The position numbers were made by a program, and so were the translations under genes. A model generated the notes under the pieces. The model was not told where the DNA came from. It did no database searches and saw nothing but the letters and a program-made list of their open reading frames with translations. This document shows, piece by piece, positions 31,097-56,921 of a stretch of DNA of 64,000 nucleotides. Within the stretch, counting starts at the first letter, position 1. Every line of letters begins with the position of its first letter. Origin of the DNA: Leptospirillum ferrooxidans C2-3 (lineage in GTDB: Bacteria; Nitrospirota; Leptospirillia; Leptospirillales; Leptospirillaceae); the NCBI RefSeq assembly GCF_000284315.1, contig NC_017094.1, positions 310,001 to 374,000 of the forward strand, in the 5' to 3' direction.

Positions 31097-31155
31097 TGGT
31101 ACTCGGGAGGGGAATCGAACCCCTATGACCGTAAGGTCGGCGGATTTTGAGTCCG
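31097..31155 (-). repeat. Displaced 3' part of tRNA-Leu (left attachment site)
   Basis: 59 bases match the 3' two thirds of the intact tRNA-Leu gene at 56835-56921, from the CCA (TGG on the plus strand) to the anticodon stem-loop, with 4 substitutions. The last 22 bases (31134-31155) are identical to 56872-56893, and similarity ends abruptly there. It is the chromosomal tRNA end left behind when the element integrated. Confidence 0.92.
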
Positions 31156-31252: not shown

Positions 31253-31276
31253 TCTGAGTGTCGGAGAAGTGTCGGA
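31253..31276 (+). repeat. Left copy of 24-bp repeat, candidate integrase arm site
   Basis: Identical and in the same orientation to 56751-56774. It contains two tandem GTGTCGGA units 11 bases apart, with a third GTCGGA just after. It lies 97 bases inside the left core; the right copy lies 97 bases inside the right core. This symmetry fits arm-type binding sites of a tyrosine integrase. Confidence 0.8.
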
Positions 31277-49984: not shown

Positions 49985-50375
49985 AATCCGCCCAAGAGCG
50001 TATCCGATAAAATCCAAGACAAATTTCCCAAGCACCTGAAAACCAATTCCGAACTGAAAATCCAAAGCAAAAACTGAGCTAAGCCAGCATACGCCCTGTC
50101 TAGCGACAGTTCGTACCGTCGGCAGCTTGCGCCACCGACTTGCTGGCCAGAGGGGGAGCCCCCTGGACCCCCAGAAGCAGAGTCGCTCCTTCTCCCGGGA
50201 TTCTTACCCGAGAGGTGGACGGCTCTGCCTTCCTTCGTCCTTTGTGCCTTTCGTCCGGGATTCGGAACCTTCGCGGGTTCCCAATCCCGGCACTGGCCTC
50301 TTGGCCCGGCACGTCAGTCCTCGAAGGCAATGAGCGTCCAGGGATTTGTTCAACCATTTTCTGATCGGAGGTTTT
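49985..50375. other. Candidate origin of transfer (oriT) region
   Basis: 391 gene-free bases directly before the RHH-relaxase pair. It holds short palindromes typical of oriT: CTGTC-tagc-GACAG (50096-50109), GTCGG-n12-CCGAC (about 50118-50139) and a GGGGG/CCCCC cluster (50152-50178). A segment resembling an IncQ nick region, catacgccctg, is at 50088-50098. A-rich repeats of the form aaaatccaa precede it (50009-50070). The nick site cannot be fixed from sequence alone. Confidence 0.45.
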
Positions 50376-50678
50376 ATGGATAGGAAGCGATTACTGACGG
50401 TGCGGTTTTCTGAAGAGGACTACGCCCGGATTGTCGAAAAGGCCCAACTTGCGGGCCGTCCTCTCTCCGTTCTGGTGCGGGACGCATTGGGACGAGTGAA
50501 GACTTGGACCGCCCAAGACCGGGCCGCCTTTCGGGAGAGAACTCTGGCCCACGCCCGGATTGGAGCCGCCTTGGGAGACATGGCCCGGTCGGTTCGGCAA
50601 AACCCGTCCGTTGCTCCTCGAATCATACCGGAGCTCCAGAAAATATACGACGTTCTTTTCAGGGAGACGCACCCATGA
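50376..50678 (+). CDS. MobC-like ribbon-helix-helix accessory mobilisation protein
   Basis: 100 residues from ATG 50376 (cggagg upstream). The N-terminal RHH (LLTVRFSEEDYARIVEKAQLAGRPLSVLVRDAL) is that of MobC/NikA-type relaxosome proteins, which bind oriT and help the relaxase. A helical tail follows. It overlaps the relaxase start by 4 bases (ATGA), so the two are coupled. Probably autoregulatory. Confidence 0.82.
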   Translation: MDRKRLLTVRFSEEDYARIVEKAQLAGRPLSVLVRDALGRVKTWTAQDRAAFRERTLAHARIGAALGDMARSVRQNPSVAPRIIPELQKIYDVLFRETHP

Positions 50679-51556
50679 TTGTCAAGCTTTTCCGCCGGGG
50701 GACCGGAAGGGGATCTGGCCCCGTCGACTACCTTCTCGGGGAGACGGACTCGAACGGAGAGCCCCGTCCCCACACGCCCGAGATTCTGTTCGGCGATCCG
50801 GACACGATCCGGGACGTGATCGACAGCCTGGACTTCCGGCACAAGTACACCTCCGGGGTGCTGAGCTTTGCGACCGAAGAGCGACCGAGCCCGTCCCAGC
50901 AGGAGCAGGTGATACGCGAATTCGAAGATCTGGCCTTTGCCGGGCTCTCCCGGGATCGGGTTCTTGTCCTCTGGGTCCGGCACACCGGCAAGGACGGACG
51001 GGTGGAACTCCATTTTGTTATTCCCAAGGTGGACCTTGTCACCGGAAAACAGTTCAATGCCTTTCCACCGGGGTGGCGGAAAGACTTCAAGGACTGGAAA
51101 AACATGACGAACCTCAGGAACGGGTGGGCCGATCCGGAGGACCCCAATCGTGCCCGGGTTCGCTCCCCCGGCGAGAATGAGTCCCCGTCCCGGAGCCGGG
51201 AGAAAGAGCGGCTGACAGATCTTCTGATCGTCCGTATTAAAGAGGGAAGGATTCACGACCGGAAGGGGGTGGTCGACGCTTTGAAGGAGCAAGGTTATGA
51301 GGTAGGACGATTGTCGGCAGATTACCTGTCGGTCAAAAAGCCTGGAGAAAAGCCACTTCGCTTGAAGGGGGGAATTTTTGCCGAGTCTTTTTCCCTGGAA
51401 GAGTCGGAAAAGGTCCGGACCGCCGACCGGGCGGAACGGCTGGGGAAGGCCATTCGGGGATCGGCCCTGGCCCGGGGACGCCGGGAGCGGCAGACCCAGG
51501 CGCGATACGAGACGGTGAGGGGGACAGAAATTCGGGAGAAGGTCAACAATGGCTGA
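50675..51556 (+). CDS. Relaxase (ColE1 MbeA-like, MOBP HEN-type variant)
   Basis: 293 residues. The N-terminal catalytic part begins MIVKLFRRGTGRGSGPVDYLLG. The metal/active-site segment RHTGKDGRVELHFVIPKVDL (residues about 107-126) corresponds to the H...E.N motif of ColE1-type relaxases, but carries His where Asn is usual (HEH). The Tyr nucleophile is probably that in PVDYLLG. A C-terminal helical Arg-rich part binds DNA. It nicks oriT and leads the strand into the recipient. Overlaps at both ends place it in an RHH - relaxase - coupling protein operon. Confidence 0.85.
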   Translation: MIVKLFRRGTGRGSGPVDYLLGETDSNGEPRPHTPEILFGDPDTIRDVIDSLDFRHKYTSGVLSFATEERPSPSQQEQVIREFEDLAFAGLSRDRVLVLWVRHTGKDGRVELHFVIPKVDLVTGKQFNAFPPGWRKDFKDWKNMTNLRNGWADPEDPNRARVRSPGENESPSRSREKERLTDLLIVRIKEGRIHDRKGVVDALKEQGYEVGRLSADYLSVKKPGEKPLRLKGGIFAESFSLEESEKVRTADRAERLGKAIRGSALARGRRERQTQARYETVRGTEIREKVNNG

Positions 51557-53615
51557 ATACATGGTCGATCTGAATTCCGGGTCTTCTGAAACCTCGACGG
51601 AAGGGAATTCCGGACCCAATCCGGAAGTCCAATCCCAGGCATTTCTTCCCCTCCCCGCGAAACGACCCAAGCGACTGAAATATAGACCTTCCGTAAAAGT
51701 TCCGGAAGAACGGGAAGGTCGGGACTGGAGCAGTGGGCTCTTGTTTTTCGTCGTGGTTTCGGCGGTCGTTTCCGGCGCATTGTGGTTTGGACTCTGGCAC
51801 ATTCCCGGACTGGCCCCTTGGCCCTTTCCTGCCACGGACGCCAAAGGGAACAATGTGTCTTTGGATCTATCCCTTCTTTGGATCCTCCATTTTTTTCACC
51901 TTGCTCCTTTCAACGGGTATGACTGGGACAGCGTGCGGCTCTGGCTCAGCAACCAAGGCTTCCTTTGGTCATTCGAAGGAATTCTGGCCCTGTCTCTGGG
52001 GAGCGGCCTTGTTGTGGGCACTTTCGCCTTTTTGGGAGTCTCCCGGGGGCGGCTGAAAAAAGTCCATGTTGTCGGAAAGCGGATATTCAACAGTGCCGCC
52101 GACGCAACCCGGGAACTACGGGGAGAGGTCGCCAAGTCGGGCCAGGGAATATCGATTCACCCTGACGTTCCGATCTCCCGGGATCGGGAAACCCGTCATT
52201 TCTTCGTTCTCGGGGCGATCGGATCCGGCAAGACCCAGGTCATATTTAACATATTGCAGTCGATCCTTCACCGAATGCGTTCCGGTCCGGAAGACCGTCT
52301 GATTCTCTACGACAACAAAAGTGACATTACCGCAGGACTTCCCGTTGCCGATTCGGAAATGATTCTCCTTGCGCCCTGGGACGCGCGGACCTGGGCGTGG
52401 GACGTGGGCAAGGATATCGAGAACGCCACCGACGCGGCGACCTTTGCCGAGAGGCTGATCCCGGAAAGCAAGGACAAATTCTGGTCGGAGGCTCCCCGTC
52501 AGATCGTCAAAGCCTGCATTCAACACCTTCAGACGACCCGTGGGACCGAATGGTCGTGGAAAGAATTGTCAAAAGCCCTGAACTCGCCGGAGACGATTCT
52601 GGGGGCGGTCATGCTGTATGCTCCGAATCTGGCCCCGGTCTTCGTCGGGGCGGGAGGGGGGCCGACCAGCACGGGAGCCAGTCTGCTGTCTTCAATGAAT
52701 GCCTTTACAGGATCGATCGACGATCTGTGCCGGGCGTGGGACAATACCGATCCGTTCACCGGGCAGGAAATCGAACCGGGCCGGATCGTTCCCCGGATTT
52801 CTCTCCGAGAGTGGGCCCTGACCCCGGTCGTTTCCCGCCGGACGATCATTCTCCAGGGGAACAAGCGCTACCTGACCCTGGAACGGGCATATATTCAGGC
52901 CATTGTCAGCGCCTTTGGGGGGATCATGAATTCCCCCGAAATGCCGGATTCGAAGAGCCGCCGGATCTGGTTTCTCCTAGACGAATTTCCTCAACTCGGC
53001 AAGCTCGAACACTTCGCGCAATACTTGGAGGTGGGCCGTTCCAAGGGCTTGTGCGTTCTCCTCGGACTCCAGGATCTCTCCCAGCTCCGGGAGATTTATG
53101 GCCGGGAAACGGCGGACGTCTGGGCCGCAATTTGCGGGACGTATATCGTGTGCCGGAGCCAGGGCGTGGAAACGGTCCGGTGGCTGACCCAGTTTTTCGG
53201 AGAGAGGACCATAAGAACCCGACGGGTCTCTCTTTCGAACTCCGAGAAAGGTTTGAGAAAAACAATCACCGAGGTTGTCGAATCCGAACCTGTGGTGACG
53301 GGTCACGATCTCAATGGTCTGGGGGATAACAAGGGCACCAGTCCCGGGATCCTGGCCCTTCTGTCTCTCAATACCGGCCATGGGGTCTATCGCCTCGTGT
53401 GGCCGTATGTCACCCTTCCCAGGGTCCGGGAAAACCAGATCCCGGCGGGGTGGACGACCGCTTCGCCAAAAACGGCGCCGATTCCTCCCGAAATACGGAG
53501 AGAGTCCGGAAGGACCAAACGGAGAGGAAAAGGCGGAGAAAAAAAGAGCGAAGAGGAACCCTCGACCGGTCCCAATGACCAGGAATCCATTGATCCATTT
53601 TATGACGTCAGGTAA
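51549..53615 (+). CDS. Type IV coupling protein (VirD4/TraD-like)
   Basis: 688 residues. Two N-terminal TM helices (LLFFVVVSAVVSGALWFGLW and GILALSLGSGLVVGTFAFLGV) anchor it in the inner membrane. The motor domain has Walker A VLGAIGSGKTQVIF (about 222) and Walker B WFLLDEFPQLGKLEHF (about 478), followed by LGLQDLSQLREIYG. It would deliver the relaxase-DNA complex to a mating channel. The C-terminal 60 residues are charged and disordered. No channel genes are in the window, so it must use one from another element. Confidence 0.93.
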   Translation: MAEYMVDLNSGSSETSTEGNSGPNPEVQSQAFLPLPAKRPKRLKYRPSVKVPEEREGRDWSSGLLFFVVVSAVVSGALWFGLWHIPGLAPWPFPATDAKGNNVSLDLSLLWILHFFHLAPFNGYDWDSVRLWLSNQGFLWSFEGILALSLGSGLVVGTFAFLGVSRGRLKKVHVVGKRIFNSAADATRELRGEVAKSGQGISIHPDVPISRDRETRHFFVLGAIGSGKTQVIFNILQSILHRMRSGPEDRLILYDNKSDITAGLPVADSEMILLAPWDARTWAWDVGKDIENATDAATFAERLIPESKDKFWSEAPRQIVKACIQHLQTTRGTEWSWKELSKALNSPETILGAVMLYAPNLAPVFVGAGGGPTSTGASLLSSMNAFTGSIDDLCRAWDNTDPFTGQEIEPGRIVPRISLREWALTPVVSRRTIILQGNKRYLTLERAYIQAIVSAFGGIMNSPEMPDSKSRRIWFLLDEFPQLGKLEHFAQYLEVGRSKGLCVLLGLQDLSQLREIYGRETADVWAAICGTYIVCRSQGVETVRWLTQFFGERTIRTRRVSLSNSEKGLRKTITEVVESEPVVTGHDLNGLGDNKGTSPGILALLSLNTGHGVYRLVWPYVTLPRVRENQIPAGWTTASPKTAPIPPEIRRESGRTKRRGKGGEKKSEEEPSTGPNDQESIDPFYDVR

Positions 53616-53619
53616 GAGC

Positions 53620-53647
53620 TTGACGCATGATCGATCCATGCTAGAAT
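53620..53647 (+). promoter_or_regulatory. Sigma70-type promoter ahead of the small-gene cluster
   Basis: TTGACG (53620-53625), 16-base spacer, TAGAAT (53642-53647), starting 5 bases after the coupling-protein stop. It is well placed to transcribe the three small genes and ardC. About 140 bases of A-rich untranslated leader precede the first RNA hairpin. Confidence 0.6.
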
Positions 53648-53790
53648 GAAAGCATTCCAGACGTTGTTGCCTCACGTCGTCTCGCCCTTTTCGGTCGCCG
53701 GGACAAAGCAGGCAAATTAACGCAAGTCAAAAAGCCAATCCAAAGAAAAAATCCCAAAGCAATCAAAAAAACACTGAAAGCCACGTGTAG

Positions 53791-53858
53791 GCGGGTTCTC
53801 GTCAGTCGACCCCCGCTTTCTCCTCTTGGGATCCCCGGTCCCGACCAAGAGAGAACAC
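53791..53858 (+). promoter_or_regulatory. Leader element A (divergent copy) before a 49-codon gene
   Basis: GCGGG (53791-53795) can pair with CCCGC (53812-53816). The following CTCTTGG (about 53822-53828) can pair with CCAAGAG (about 53845-53851), which overlaps the ribosome site. It ends at ATG 53859. Similar in layout to leaders B, C and D but less conserved. Confidence 0.45.
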
Positions 53859-54008
53859 ATGATCATGAAAATCATTATCGGCGTCTTGGGCGCTCTTTCG
53901 TGGTTCTTGGCTCTGGGAGTGGTTTTTTCCTGTTTTCGGCTTCATGGGGAGTGCGGGGAAAAAATGGACGGTATCGGGGGAATTTTCCGTTCGGTGCTCG
54001 GACAATAA
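53859..54008 (+). CDS. Small single-pass membrane protein
   Basis: 49 residues from ATG 53859 (ATG 53865 is also possible), with aagagag upstream. A single hydrophobic helix (IIIGVLGALSWFLALGVVF) spans residues 4-22. A Cys-containing segment follows (SCFRLHGECGEKM), whose two cysteines could form a disulfide. Family not recognised. It lies between two leader elements; leader B directly after its stop works as a terminator. Confidence 0.55.
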   Translation: MIMKIIIGVLGALSWFLALGVVFSCFRLHGECGEKMDGIGGIFRSVLGQ

Positions 54009-54019
54009 TCAAGACCCAC

Positions 54020-54073
54020 AGCGGGTAAACGCGGCCCGCTCCTTCCGGAACGGGCTTTTTTCGGGAGGGCGGC
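54020..54073 (+). promoter_or_regulatory. Leader element B: alternative hairpins with terminator
   Basis: AGCGGG (54020-54025) pairs with CCCGCT (54035-54040). Alternatively GCCCG (54034-54038) pairs with CGGGC (54051-54055), with TCC/GGA inside, followed by six Ts (54056-54061): an intrinsic terminator. The two structures share the CCCGC strand, so they exclude each other. A gggagg ribosome site and ATG 54074 follow. Confidence 0.7.
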
Positions 54074-54196
54074 ATGGAGATTGCTCAAGAGTGTGAAAAT
54101 CGGGAGGACTGGATCGACTGGCTCTCCGAGGAAGAACTGGAACGTGAGCTGGACAAAATGGAGTCGTATTACCGAAACCTCGGGGTAATCGACTAA
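54074..54196 (+). CDS. Very small acidic protein
   Basis: 40 residues from ATG 54074, behind gggaggg. Sequence is strongly acidic and helical (ENREDWIDWLSEEELERELDKM). No hydrophobic segment, no cysteine beyond Cys7. The family is not recognised. Acidic small proteins in transfer regions can act as DNA mimics, but nothing here proves that. It is framed by leaders B and C. Confidence 0.5.
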   Translation: MEIAQECENREDWIDWLSEEELERELDKMESYYRNLGVID

Positions 54197-54208
54197 GTCA
54201 AGCCCAAT

Positions 54209-54269
54209 GCGGGCATGTGTCTTGTGCCCGCTTCCTTCTGGGAGGGGCACGCAACCAGGAGGAAAGAAA
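54209..54269 (+). promoter_or_regulatory. Leader element C: alternative hairpins before ardC
   Basis: GCGGGCA (54209-54215) pairs with TGCCCGC (54225-54231). Alternatively GTGCCC (54224-54229) pairs with GGGCAC (54245-54250). Both stems differ in sequence from those of leader D yet stay paired, so the changes are compensatory. No T-run follows. An aggagg site and ATG 54270 come next. Confidence 0.7.
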
Positions 54270-55142
54270 ATGAACACGCAAGAATTCTACGCGCAGATTA
54301 CGGAGAAAATGATCCACGCCCTGGAATCCGGGACCGCGCCTTGGACCCGGCCCTGGAAAGTGACCGGGGACGGTGTGCCTGTAAATGCTTTGACCGGGAA
54401 GCCCTACCGGGGCGTGAATGCGCTGAACTTGTCCTGGCATGCCCTGTCAATGGGTGTACCGGACATGCGGTATGCCACCTTCAAACAAGCCGTCGAGGCG
54501 GGCTGGAAAATTCGGGGAGGATCCAAAGGGATCCCGATCCTGAAGCTCGTTCCGGTGGAGAAAAAAGAGAAAGAAGGGCGGGAAGAGGAGCCTCCCGGCA
54601 ATTCCGGAGACCTTCTGATTCCTAAAGTCTATTTTGTCTTTGGGGCTCCGGACCTGGAAGGGATTCCCGCACTGGAAGAAAAACCGAAACCGGCAGACTG
54701 GAGTGGCAAGGCGGAAGAGATCAGGTCAAGGCTTTCGACGGCTCTCAATGTCCCGGTGAATCACGGAGGCGGACGGGCGTTCTACTCGCGCACCGACGAC
54801 CGGATCCAAATGCCGGGGGAAGGAAATTTCGAAGGTGAAAAGGCGTATCTCGGGACTCTTCTTCATGAGTTCGCTCATGCAACGGGCCATGAAAAAAGGC
54901 TAAACAGGTCCTTTGGGGTCTACGGGGATCCGGATTACGCCTTTGAGGAGCTGGTCGCAGAAATGACGAGCCTCTTTGTGGCCATGTCGACGGGGATTAG
55001 TCCGGCGGAGGCCCATTTCAAAAACCATGCGGCCTATGTCCGTTCCTGGATCGAGGCGCTGGAGAAAGACAAGAAGGCATTGGTCCGGGCGTCGAAACTC
55101 GCTCAGACTGCTTGTGATCTTCTGGTAAACACCATGCAATAA
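54270..55142 (+). CDS. ArdC-like antirestriction protein with zinc metallopeptidase domain
   Basis: 290 residues. The N-terminal ArdC domain (EFYAQITEKMIHALESGTAPWTRPW ... GKPYRGVNALNLSW) binds single-stranded DNA in known members. The C-terminal part is a metallopeptidase-like domain with HEFAHATGH (HExxH, about 218-226) and EELVAEMTSLF supplying the third ligand. ArdC-type proteins protect incoming DNA from restriction. It is notable in an element that itself carries a type I restriction system. A structured leader precedes it and another follows its stop. Confidence 0.9.
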   Translation: MNTQEFYAQITEKMIHALESGTAPWTRPWKVTGDGVPVNALTGKPYRGVNALNLSWHALSMGVPDMRYATFKQAVEAGWKIRGGSKGIPILKLVPVEKKEKEGREEEPPGNSGDLLIPKVYFVFGAPDLEGIPALEEKPKPADWSGKAEEIRSRLSTALNVPVNHGGGRAFYSRTDDRIQMPGEGNFEGEKAYLGTLLHEFAHATGHEKRLNRSFGVYGDPDYAFEELVAEMTSLFVAMSTGISPAEAHFKNHAAYVRSWIEALEKDKKALVRASKLAQTACDLLVNTMQ

Positions 55143-55151
55143 AGGACCATT

Positions 55152-55210
55152 GGCGGGCGTAAACTTCGGCCCGCCTCCTTCTGGAGCGGGCTCTTTTCCG
55201 GGAGGACAAA
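55152..55210 (+). promoter_or_regulatory. Leader element D: alternative hairpins with terminator-like tail
   Basis: GGCGGGC (55152-55158) pairs with GCCCGCC (55169-55175) around a 10-base loop. Alternatively GCCCGC (55169-55174) pairs with GCGGGC (55186-55191), then tcttttcc. A gggagg site and ATG 55211 follow. Same plan as leaders B and C. Confidence 0.7.
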
Positions 55211-55426
55211 ATGGATATTCGAGACAAGGTCATTGTGGTGAAGGTGCCGGAAGGTCAGGCTTCAGAACTAAAAAACGGCACTCTGACGAAAAAGGCCGTA
55301 CTGGAAAAGCTTGAGGCGGAATTTGTTCGGGTGAGCGCTCACTATTACAAGGAAAAGTCGGAGTACTATGAGGGATACCGCGAAGGGTTGTCCCAGGCAC
55401 TCTGGTTCTTGAAAAAAATGGAATAG
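55211..55426 (+). CDS. Small hypothetical protein
   Basis: 71 residues from ATG 55211, behind gggagg. A short beta start (DKVIVVKVPEGQ) is followed by a helical, aromatic-rich part (VRVSAHYYKEKSEYYEGYREGLSQALWFLKKM). No recognised family. Last gene of the small cluster and followed by a strong terminator. Expression probably depends on leader D. Confidence 0.6.
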   Translation: MDIRDKVIVVKVPEGQASELKNGTLTKKAVLEKLEAEFVRVSAHYYKEKSEYYEGYREGLSQALWFLKKME

Positions 55427-55477
55427 TCGGGAAGGATCGTCCGCTGACGGGGCGATCCTTACACGTATTGAAAAATT

Positions 55478-55511
55478 AAAATGGGAACGGAGCCCGTCTG
55501 TTCCCATTTTT
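55478..55511. terminator. Bidirectional terminator between the small cluster and the integrase
   Basis: AAAATGGGAAC (55478-55488) pairs with GTTCCCATTTT (55500-55510) around an 11-base loop, with Ts after it on the plus strand and an A-run before it serving the minus strand. A second stem, aGGATCG ... CGATCCt (about 55435-55459), lies just upstream. Confidence 0.8.
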
Positions 55512-55678
55512 GTGAGAATATTGTCAAACACTTCATAGAATAAGTCCTTGCAATCCTCAATCTGACCATATAGCGTTATTGATTTTCTGATCAGTCGTGT
55601 ATTGGCTCAGGGCGTATACTGCCAAATTGTTGCGGGAATCCAACCAATTACAGCCCAAAATCCCCAAGAAGTTCCAGT

Positions 55679-56731
55679 CTATTTTTCCGGAGCGGAAGCC
55701 TTGTGATTCGTGGAAGACTCCCACATTTTCTTCCCGAGTTCCTCGCCTGTCGGATTGTAATATCGCATGACCATGTTCAAGACTTTGTGCCCAAGGATTT
55801 TTGCCAATTCGTGGGCTTGATAGATCCCGGCAAGTCTTGTGGCCGCCGTATGACGGAGATCGTGAAAACGAATATCTTTTAGCCCTGTAGACTTGGCCGC
55901 CGCAGCGAAAACCTGTGAAACCCGGTCGGGGCCTATTCCCCATAGGTTGCCCTTAATACCGATCACTTGGCTATTGAGCACTTCCTTTAATGTTTCCAAA
56001 GCTACAGTGGAGAGAGGAACTTCACGAGAGGACCCATTTTTCGTTTCTTCAAGCTTGACGATCTTCCTGTTAATATCGATATTGGTTCTTGTCAAAGACA
56101 TGATTTCTCCCCGTCTCATGCCTGTCTCCACTGCCAACAAGACAATATGTTGCATTTCTTTCGACAAGTGTTTGAGTAGTTCGTTCTGTTCTTCAAAAGA
56201 AAGGGTCCGCTCCCTGCTTTTAAACAGGTTATTTGCTTTCTTCCCCGGATTTGTCCCTTTGGTTCTTCTGATCGGATTGACTAAACCGGGCATGTCCCAG
56301 TGCTCCCGTGCCACGTTAAAAAGGTGGCTCACGATTGCAAGGTCAAGCCGGATTGTTCGCTCAGAAATACCTGCACCACGGCGAGCTTGCTCGTATTCAA
56401 AAATATCTTGCGGTCGAATGGTTGCCAGATATCGTTGTGCGAGCGCATTTACTTTCCAGGACCGGATTCGTTTTTTCTCCTGGGAGTATCCTTTTTTGTA
56501 TTTTGAAACTTCTTCTTCATACCGGCTCAAAGCCTCGGACAATGTCGTGTTCTCAGCTTCTTTCCGTGAAACGAAAATGCCCCGATCTATTTCCGACTCG
56601 ATCTCCCTCGCCCATTTTTCAGCGTCCTCGCGCTTGTCAAACGAATGCATTTGGGCAGGGTAGCCTTTTCGCCGGATTTTTGCTTCCCATACCGTAGAAT
56701 CTGCCAGTTTGCGTTTATAGAAACTCGCCAT
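55679..56731 (-). CDS. int: Tyrosine-type site-specific integrase
   Basis: 350 residues. An N-terminal arm-binding segment (YKRKLADSTVWEAKIRRKGYPAQMHSF) is followed by a SAM-like core-binding domain. The catalytic domain has Arg in TGMRRGEIMSL, the HxLRH box in FHDLRHTAATRLAG, His/Gly in LGHKVLN and the nucleophile Tyr in MRYYNPTGE. It integrates and excises the element at the tRNA-Leu core. It lies 100 bases from the tRNA 3' end and points into the element, with the right arm repeat just upstream of its start. Confidence 0.95.
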   Translation of the reverse strand: MASFYKRKLADSTVWEAKIRRKGYPAQMHSFDKREDAEKWAREIESEIDRGIFVSRKEAENTTLSEALSRYEEEVSKYKKGYSQEKKRIRSWKVNALAQRYLATIRPQDIFEYEQARRGAGISERTIRLDLAIVSHLFNVAREHWDMPGLVNPIRRTKGTNPGKKANNLFKSRERTLSFEEQNELLKHLSKEMQHIVLLAVETGMRRGEIMSLTRTNIDINRKIVKLEETKNGSSREVPLSTVALETLKEVLNSQVIGIKGNLWGIGPDRVSQVFAAAAKSTGLKDIRFHDLRHTAATRLAGIYQAHELAKILGHKVLNMVMRYYNPTGEELGKKMWESSTNHKASAPEK

Positions 56732-56750: not shown

Positions 56751-56774
56751 TCTGAGTGTCGGAGAAGTGTCGGA
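56751..56774 (+). repeat. Right copy of 24-bp repeat, candidate integrase arm site
   Basis: Identical and same orientation as 31253-31276, 97 bases from the right core. It also lies directly upstream of the integrase start, so integrase binding there may repress its own gene. Confidence 0.8.
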
Positions 56775-56834: not shown

Positions 56835-56921
56835 TGGTGCTCGGGAGGAGAATCGAACTCCTATGACCGTGAGGTCGGCGGATTTTGAGTCCGCTGCGTC
56901 TGCCTGTTCCGCCACCCGAGC
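56835..56921 (-). tRNA. tRNA-Leu (anticodon CAA)
   Basis: 87 bases including the encoded CCA. Acceptor arms GCTCGGG and CCCGAGC pair fully. The anticodon stem-loop is GCGGA-CTCAAAA-TCCGC. A long variable arm (ACCTCACGGT) is typical of tRNA-Leu, and the T arm is GGAGTTCGATTCTCC. The 5' part is chromosomal and the 3' part was supplied by the element, which restores a complete gene on integration. Confidence 0.95.

Follow-up and report, generated by a model that had tools for sequence, protein, structure and literature searches.

The integrated mobile element examined here, from an iron-oxidizing bacterium, carries four small genes, including the anti-restriction gene ardC, whose three intercistronic gaps each hold a GC-rich inverted-repeat leader. 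The question raised by this locus is whether these leaders are RNA switches and, if so, which step of gene expression they control. Their sequences show that the three leaders (B, C, and D) are genuine and related to each other, forming a set of paralogous intercistronic RNA elements of ~55 to 60 nt. We propose that they are intercistronic switches, each of which would control whether the next gene (gene 2, ardC, or gene 4, respectively) is translated, a model to which we give about an even chance of being correct. Within that model, a good case can be made from the computed folds for closing of the Shine–Dalgarno (SD) sequence and a fair one for switching among three helices (P1, P2, and P3).

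Genomic setting of the leaders

The window, by which we mean the entire 64,000-nucleotide stretch that was analyzed, corresponds to bases 310001 to 374000 of a single 2,559,538-bp contig. The leaders reside in an integrated mobile element that adjoins a tRNA-Leu gene (56835–56921). A degenerate copy of the end of this tRNA-Leu(CAA) gene is present at ~31100 to 31155 and has an exact 22-nt stretch in common with 56872 to 56893, which suggests an element of ~25.7 kb. The two copies of the tRNA end are probable att sites of a mobilizable element. A 24-nt direct repeat (TCTGAGTGTCGGAGAAGTGTCGGA), which itself contains a GTGTCGGA/GTGTCGGA repeat, is found just inside both ends (31253–31276 and 56751–56774), and its copies are perhaps integrase arm-type sites. 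The element carries type I restriction-like genes and primase-like genes as well as genes for a relaxase, a coupling protein, and an integrase, with the relaxase and coupling-protein genes followed by the four small genes and the integrase gene placed last (Table 1). Note that the open frame of the relaxase gene reaches back to a TTG codon at 50504, overlapping a NikA-like gene (50346–50678), and that the likely start is ATG 50675.

Gene 1, gene 2, ardC, and gene 4 look like one operon. It could start at a promoter-like site that follows the coupling-protein gene, a weak signal because a consensus scan returned two such sites in 2.2 kb versus 0.8 expected, and its probable end is an inverted repeat with a TTTTTGTG tail. 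The ArdC assignment is based on two Pfam domains (E values of 3e-27 and 1e-37) and on a match to the PHROG family ‘anti-restriction protein’ (E value of 4e-71). The open frame of ardC extends back across leader C as far as ATG 54207, where there is no ribosome site, and automatic annotation may therefore start this gene 21 codons too early. Gene 4 exhibits a weak match (E value of 0.016) to a phage ‘transcriptional regulator’ family, phrog_17403, and could encode a regulator of its own operon. Within the element, the operon is situated past the relaxase and coupling-protein genes and would not clearly belong to a leading region, and the initial annotation's view that its genes help soon after transfer is guesswork based on ardC only.

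Table 1. Positions in the window of the genes, leaders, helices, and candidate signals discussed in the text.
Feature	Position	Strand	Remarks
Relaxase	50675–51556		
Coupling protein	51549–53615		
Promoter-like site	53620–53647	+	TTGACG-16-TAGAAT, TG-extended; 10/12 matches in consensus scan
Leader A	53790–53862	+	GC hairpin and SD-pairing hairpin, no P2; weakly similar to B–D
Gene 1	53859–54008	+	49 aa, small hydrophobic protein, no family
Leader B	54020–54073	+	Gap between gene 1 and gene 2
B P1	54020–54026/54034–54040		
B P2	54034–54055		Followed by TTTTTT (54056–54061)
B P3	54041–54050/54059–54068		Closes SD 54063–54068
Gene 2	54074–54196	+	40 aa, acidic, no family
Leader C	54208–54269	+	Gap between gene 2 and ardC
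C P1	54209–54217/54223–54231		
C P2	54224–54250		No T run; GCAACC next
C P3	54232–54241/54255–54264		Closes SD 54257–54262
ardC	54270–55142	+	Anti-restriction protein, ArdcN and MPTase-PolyVal domains
Leader D	55152–55210	+	Gap between ardC and gene 4
D P1	55152–55158/55169–55175		
D P2	55169–55191		Followed by TCTTTT (55192–55197)
D P3	55176–55186/55196–55206		Closes SD 55200–55205
Gene 4	55211–55426	+	71 aa, no family
Inverted repeat with TTTTTGTG tail	55478–55510	+	14-nt arms, 93% complementary; also in terminator scan
Tyrosine integrase	55679–56731	−	End of element

Leaders B, C, and D share one plan

The initial annotation described B, C, and D as built on one plan, and our searches bear this out. 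Each leader presents GCGGG, CCCGC, YTCCTTCYGG, GGGC, and the SD sequence in this order, and pairwise identities among the three are 62 to 79%. When a covariance model was trained on nothing but C and D, its third match was B, with 29.8 bits (E value of 2e-6 in the window and 8e-5 over the 2.56-Mb genome). Because the next-best match in the genome (22.7 bits) falls inside coding DNA, B stands above background. Furthermore, the motif TCCTTCYGGN{2,4}GGGCN{4,9}CRGGAGG, which was derived from all three leaders, occurs exactly three times in the genome, at B, C, and D, and its reversed control is found nowhere. For B and D, the similarity begins directly after the stop codons and continues through ATGGA.ATT.

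Three helices compete within each leader

P1 is formed by GCGGG and CCCGC, and P2 by the CCCGC strand of P1 and the later GGGC, which close around a small CTCC-TTCT-GGAG hairpin. A third helix, P3, was missing from the two-helix description in the initial annotation and joins YTCCTTCYGG (CUCCUUCUGG) over 8 to 11 bp to CRGGAGG, the SD sequence itself. The exclusive folds noted earlier were recovered in that the CCCGC strand pairs with either its P1 or its P2 partner in B, C, and D, and P2 excludes both P1 and P3. Likewise, the terminator-like fold attributed to B and D is present, with P2 followed by a T run in the former and by TCTTTT in the latter.

All folding was thermodynamic, at 37 °C, and represents RNA without proteins or kinetics. 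From the upstream stop codon to the start codon, the minimum-energy fold of all three leaders is P1 plus P3 with the SD sequence paired, and the constrained energies of P1 plus P3 versus P2 are −28.1 versus −24.4 kcal/mol for B, −32.1 versus −29.7 kcal/mol for C, and −34.1 versus −23.6 kcal/mol for D. When growing prefixes of B and C were folded to equilibrium, P1 gave way to P2 and then to P1 plus P3, and with D, P1 and P2 were nearly balanced at intermediate length. Slightly past the SD sequence of B, an extended P3 partly displaces P1, with the SD sequence still closed. The idea that the terminator is the ground state was dropped because P1 plus P3 wins at full length in every leader.

Transcription attenuation would use the same helices in another way, with P2 serving as the intrinsic terminator that precedes each gene and P1 as an antiterminator set by some signal. 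Indeed, P1 excludes P2 in all three leaders, the T6 and TCTTTT stretches follow P2 in B and D, and at the prefix length that places polymerase on the T run, P2 is formed in 99% of B and about a third of D. However, leader C precedes the main gene ardC and has an equally strong P2 that runs into GCAACC, the T runs of B and D are at the same time strands of P3, and there is no conserved loop for ligand binding. Because C has no T run after its GC hairpin, termination cannot be the function that the three leaders have in common; what they do have in common is closing of the ribosome site. On this ground, we rejected a purely transcriptional attenuator, consider attenuation improbable as the role of the set, and regard termination as at most an added feature of B and D. 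The attenuator or antitermination family suggested by the initial annotation is weak for the same reason. A riboswitch was set aside separately, since there is no conserved aptamer loop or core, the P1 loops differ between C and B/D, and few unpaired columns are invariant.

Predicted closure of the Shine–Dalgarno sequence and conservation of helix strands

The computed probability that the SD sequence is unpaired is 0.002 for B, 0.024 for C, and 0.001 for D, which ranks these leaders in the lowest 2%, 7%, and 1%, respectively, among 207 gene leaders of the same genome, taken from the window and a further 400 kb (20 stretches of 20 kb). Dinucleotide shuffles of the region before the SD sequence were as closed in 4.2% (B), 2.3% (C), and 0.8% (D) of cases. 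Thus, the SD sequence is predicted to be paired in the most stable fold of each leader, and more so than by chance, in a GC-rich genome where closed sites are not rare (unpaired probability below 0.1 in 16% of leaders). Pairs that return during chain growth were discarded as a measure of rarity because at least four are seen in 19% of leaders, which is too common.

Leader A is not distinguishable from chance, and we no longer count it as the less clear fourth member that the initial annotation had made of it. It has no P2 and scores 11 bits with the C and D model (E value of 0.34), inside the noise. Its fold is not unusual (z of −1.4), and its SD sequence is unpaired with a probability of 0.11 (17th percentile).

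Conservation among B, C, and D is confined to the helix strands, of which 29 of 35 columns are invariant versus 4 of 31 elsewhere (p = 7e-9), and substitutions within P1 and P3 all keep pairing (chance 0.002–0.03); because the leaders are paralogous copies, neither their agreement nor these statistics are independent. Drift is seen instead in the loops, spacers, and flanks. The strongest individual sign of a role for P2 is GGGC (columns 38–41), because it is invariant even though it is located in the P3 loop, where it is useless to the P1 plus P3 fold, and only P2 explains it. The compensatory change previously claimed for P1 and P2 proved largely wrong. Their cores hardly vary (five of six pairs in the P1 core and six of seven in P2 never do), the examples cited were copy-specific stem extensions, and the only two-sided change is in a P3 pair (columns 32–50; UA, UG, and CG) among three paralogues.

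Conserved pairing with the SD sequence matters only in RNA, and this bears on a role in DNA as a single-stranded promoter, a recombination site, or operator palindromes. Inverted repeats would fold as single-stranded DNA too, and some plasmid anti-restriction genes are driven by single-stranded promoters (cited in PMC8708921). Nevertheless, the units are inside an operon and none of the three leaders gave a promoter-like site in the consensus scan, and we consider a role in DNA highly improbable.

A possible link to translation of the preceding gene

We infer that these folds form in the cell and would control expression as follows. In the resting fold, P1 would stand beside P3, with CUCCUUCUGG covering the SD sequence and the gene off. 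P1 would hold the CCCGC strand away from GGGC and so keep P3 in place. If P1 were prevented or displaced, P2 would form and P3 would be broken. For leader C, formation of P2 would expose the ardC ribosome site. With B and D, where P2 precedes T runs, a fraction of the transcripts would stop at this point, and the ribosome site would be open on readthrough transcripts, at least for D. P2 may also terminate in these two leaders, so that opening and shutting would be mixed, which speaks against the model.

As a plausible trigger, we infer a ribosome at the stop codon of the preceding gene. When the first 16 to 26 nt after the stop codon of C or D are held single-stranded, the computed probability of P2 is 0.9 to 1.0, and the SD sequence opens from ~0 to 0.64 to 0.78; with a block of 28 nt, both leaders close again. 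Such a flip is exhibited by 2% of shuffles for C and 7% for D. Leader B gave no flip in this folding test, its P3 being closed whatever is blocked. The 5′ arm of P1 starts 13, 13, and 10 nt after the upstream stop codon in B, C, and D, respectively, and P2 starts after 26, 28, and 27 nt. A ribosome positioned on a stop codon is known from Escherichia coli to repress hairpins less than ~27 to 30 nt downstream (PMC4824070), and therefore the geometry fits coupling to translation of the preceding gene, although copying of the whole stop-to-start unit would also give constant spacing.

Copying by itself might account for the leaders. They could be passive duplicates of an intergenic unit (stop spacer, hairpin, and ribosome site), multiplied for example as small genes were added, that do not switch and whose hairpins only fix a low translation rate or protect mRNA ends. 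The resemblance that starts right after the stop codons and reaches ATGGA.ATT in B and D, the lack of a flip in B, and the fact that no trigger, regulator, or distant copy was found are all as expected of such duplicates, but at 62 to 79% identity only the helix strands are conserved, including the GGGC that serves P2 only. We regard passive copying as possible yet unlikely.

For gating of translation, a stronger version can be formulated as a ratchet, in which P1 is prevented by a ribosome that completes one gene and P2 then opens the next ribosome site, with partial termination at two junctions. This version we consider decidedly unlikely. If true, the ratchet would provide gene-by-gene expression along the anti-restriction operon of a mobile element.

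A trans-acting factor, either a protein encoded by the element or an antisense RNA, might instead set all leaders together as an establishment regulon. Repeated leaders are thought to coordinate the establishment genes of pLS20-type plasmids (PMC8708921), and the weak regulator match of gene 4 (E value of 0.016) would supply a candidate. However, C and B/D lack a conserved P1 loop, the rest of the window contains no near-complementary sequence, and the motif has no further copy in the genome, which together make such a factor very unlikely.

Searches for the leaders beyond this operon

The proposal that the leaders are undescribed among known RNA families is upheld by a search of Rfam 15, in which no family reached its curated score, the window gave only a tRNA, and nothing appeared in 53600 to 55600 with E values up to 5. 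The three-leader covariance model and the motif pattern identified no copy in 394 further genomes of the phylum, none was kept from IMG/VR with the motif pattern, and blastn with the leader DNA gave no copy in plasmids and phages. The pattern matches obtained in IMG/VR and the phylum were rejected as coding DNA or chance, and two of them are hicA/hicB junctions with a similar-looking hairpin. These hicA/hicB-like phage junctions (IMG/VR L079, 436–515, and L089, 6221–6277) have a GCGGGGC..GCCCCGC hairpin at the end of hicA, followed in L089 by ACCTCC that pairs with the hicB ribosome site GGGAGGT, and they are apparently the same design reached by convergence.

Five ArdC homologues from the same bacterial family (50–58% identity) have unrelated leaders and other neighbors. 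No match was obtained for ArdC or the coupling protein in the genome contigs searched or for the coupling protein in the viral contigs searched, and gene 4 likewise gave none in relatives, plasmids, or IMG/VR. The family of mobile-element leaders that had been envisaged thus finds no support, with no copy outside one operon and family ardC homologues that are without the leader, and nothing so far argues for a family that extends past this operon.

Comparison with known systems

In ribosome-mediated attenuators such as those of trp and pyrBI, the position of the ribosome relative to a stop codon selects between competing helices. At B, C, and D, a ribosome near the stop codon could similarly select helices at 10 to 28 nt. 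Unlike trp and pyrBI, there is no leader peptide with regulatory codons, the preceding gene being in that role, and the output would be mainly the ribosome site. To our knowledge, the leaders that block translation in phage T4 are without a P1/P2 switch. They are comparable in that upstream RNA closes the SD sequence of e, soc, 49, and I-TevI in longer transcripts (PMC3014915). In T4, open transcripts arise from a late promoter located close to or within the hairpin (PMC3014915), whereas no promoter of this kind is seen at B, C, or D. The repC attenuator of pT181 is likewise a plasmid leader with exclusive folds and a hairpin that affects termination and the ribosome site (PMC5435934). In pT181, it is the terminator that covers the ribosome site, under the control of an antisense RNA (PMC5435934); at B, C, and D, the terminator-like helix P2 excludes the SD-closing helix P3, and no antisense RNA is known. 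Thus, leader hairpins that control ribosome sites, with or without termination, have precedents in pT181 (PMC5435934) and T4 e and soc (PMC3014915), and on/off control of B, C, and D by competing folds is plausible from their computed structures, although not found elsewhere in the data searched.

The closest published concept is that of EGeRS1 in pLS20-type plasmids, in which repeated structured leaders precede ardC and other establishment genes and act by an unknown mechanism, with EGeRS1-B stopping readthrough expression of the following gene (PMC8708921). Both sets comprise several related GC-rich inverted-repeat leaders directly upstream of ribosome sites, here in three copies, one of which precedes ardC and the others putative establishment genes. 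EGeRS1 units are 420 to 750 bp with many inverted repeats, versus ~60 bp for B, C, and D, about a tenth of that length. Each EGeRS1 heads its own operon, whereas B, C, and D are intercistronic in one operon. EGeRS1 is from Bacillus plasmids, and the pLS20 starts that were inspected exhibit no P1/P3 plan. Anti-restriction genes carried by mobile elements are believed to require brief and tight control of their expression, and the EGeRS1 leaders of pLS20 are the only comparable repeated leaders. Although private to one operon in the data searched, a 60-nt version with readable helices would offer an easy model for tests.
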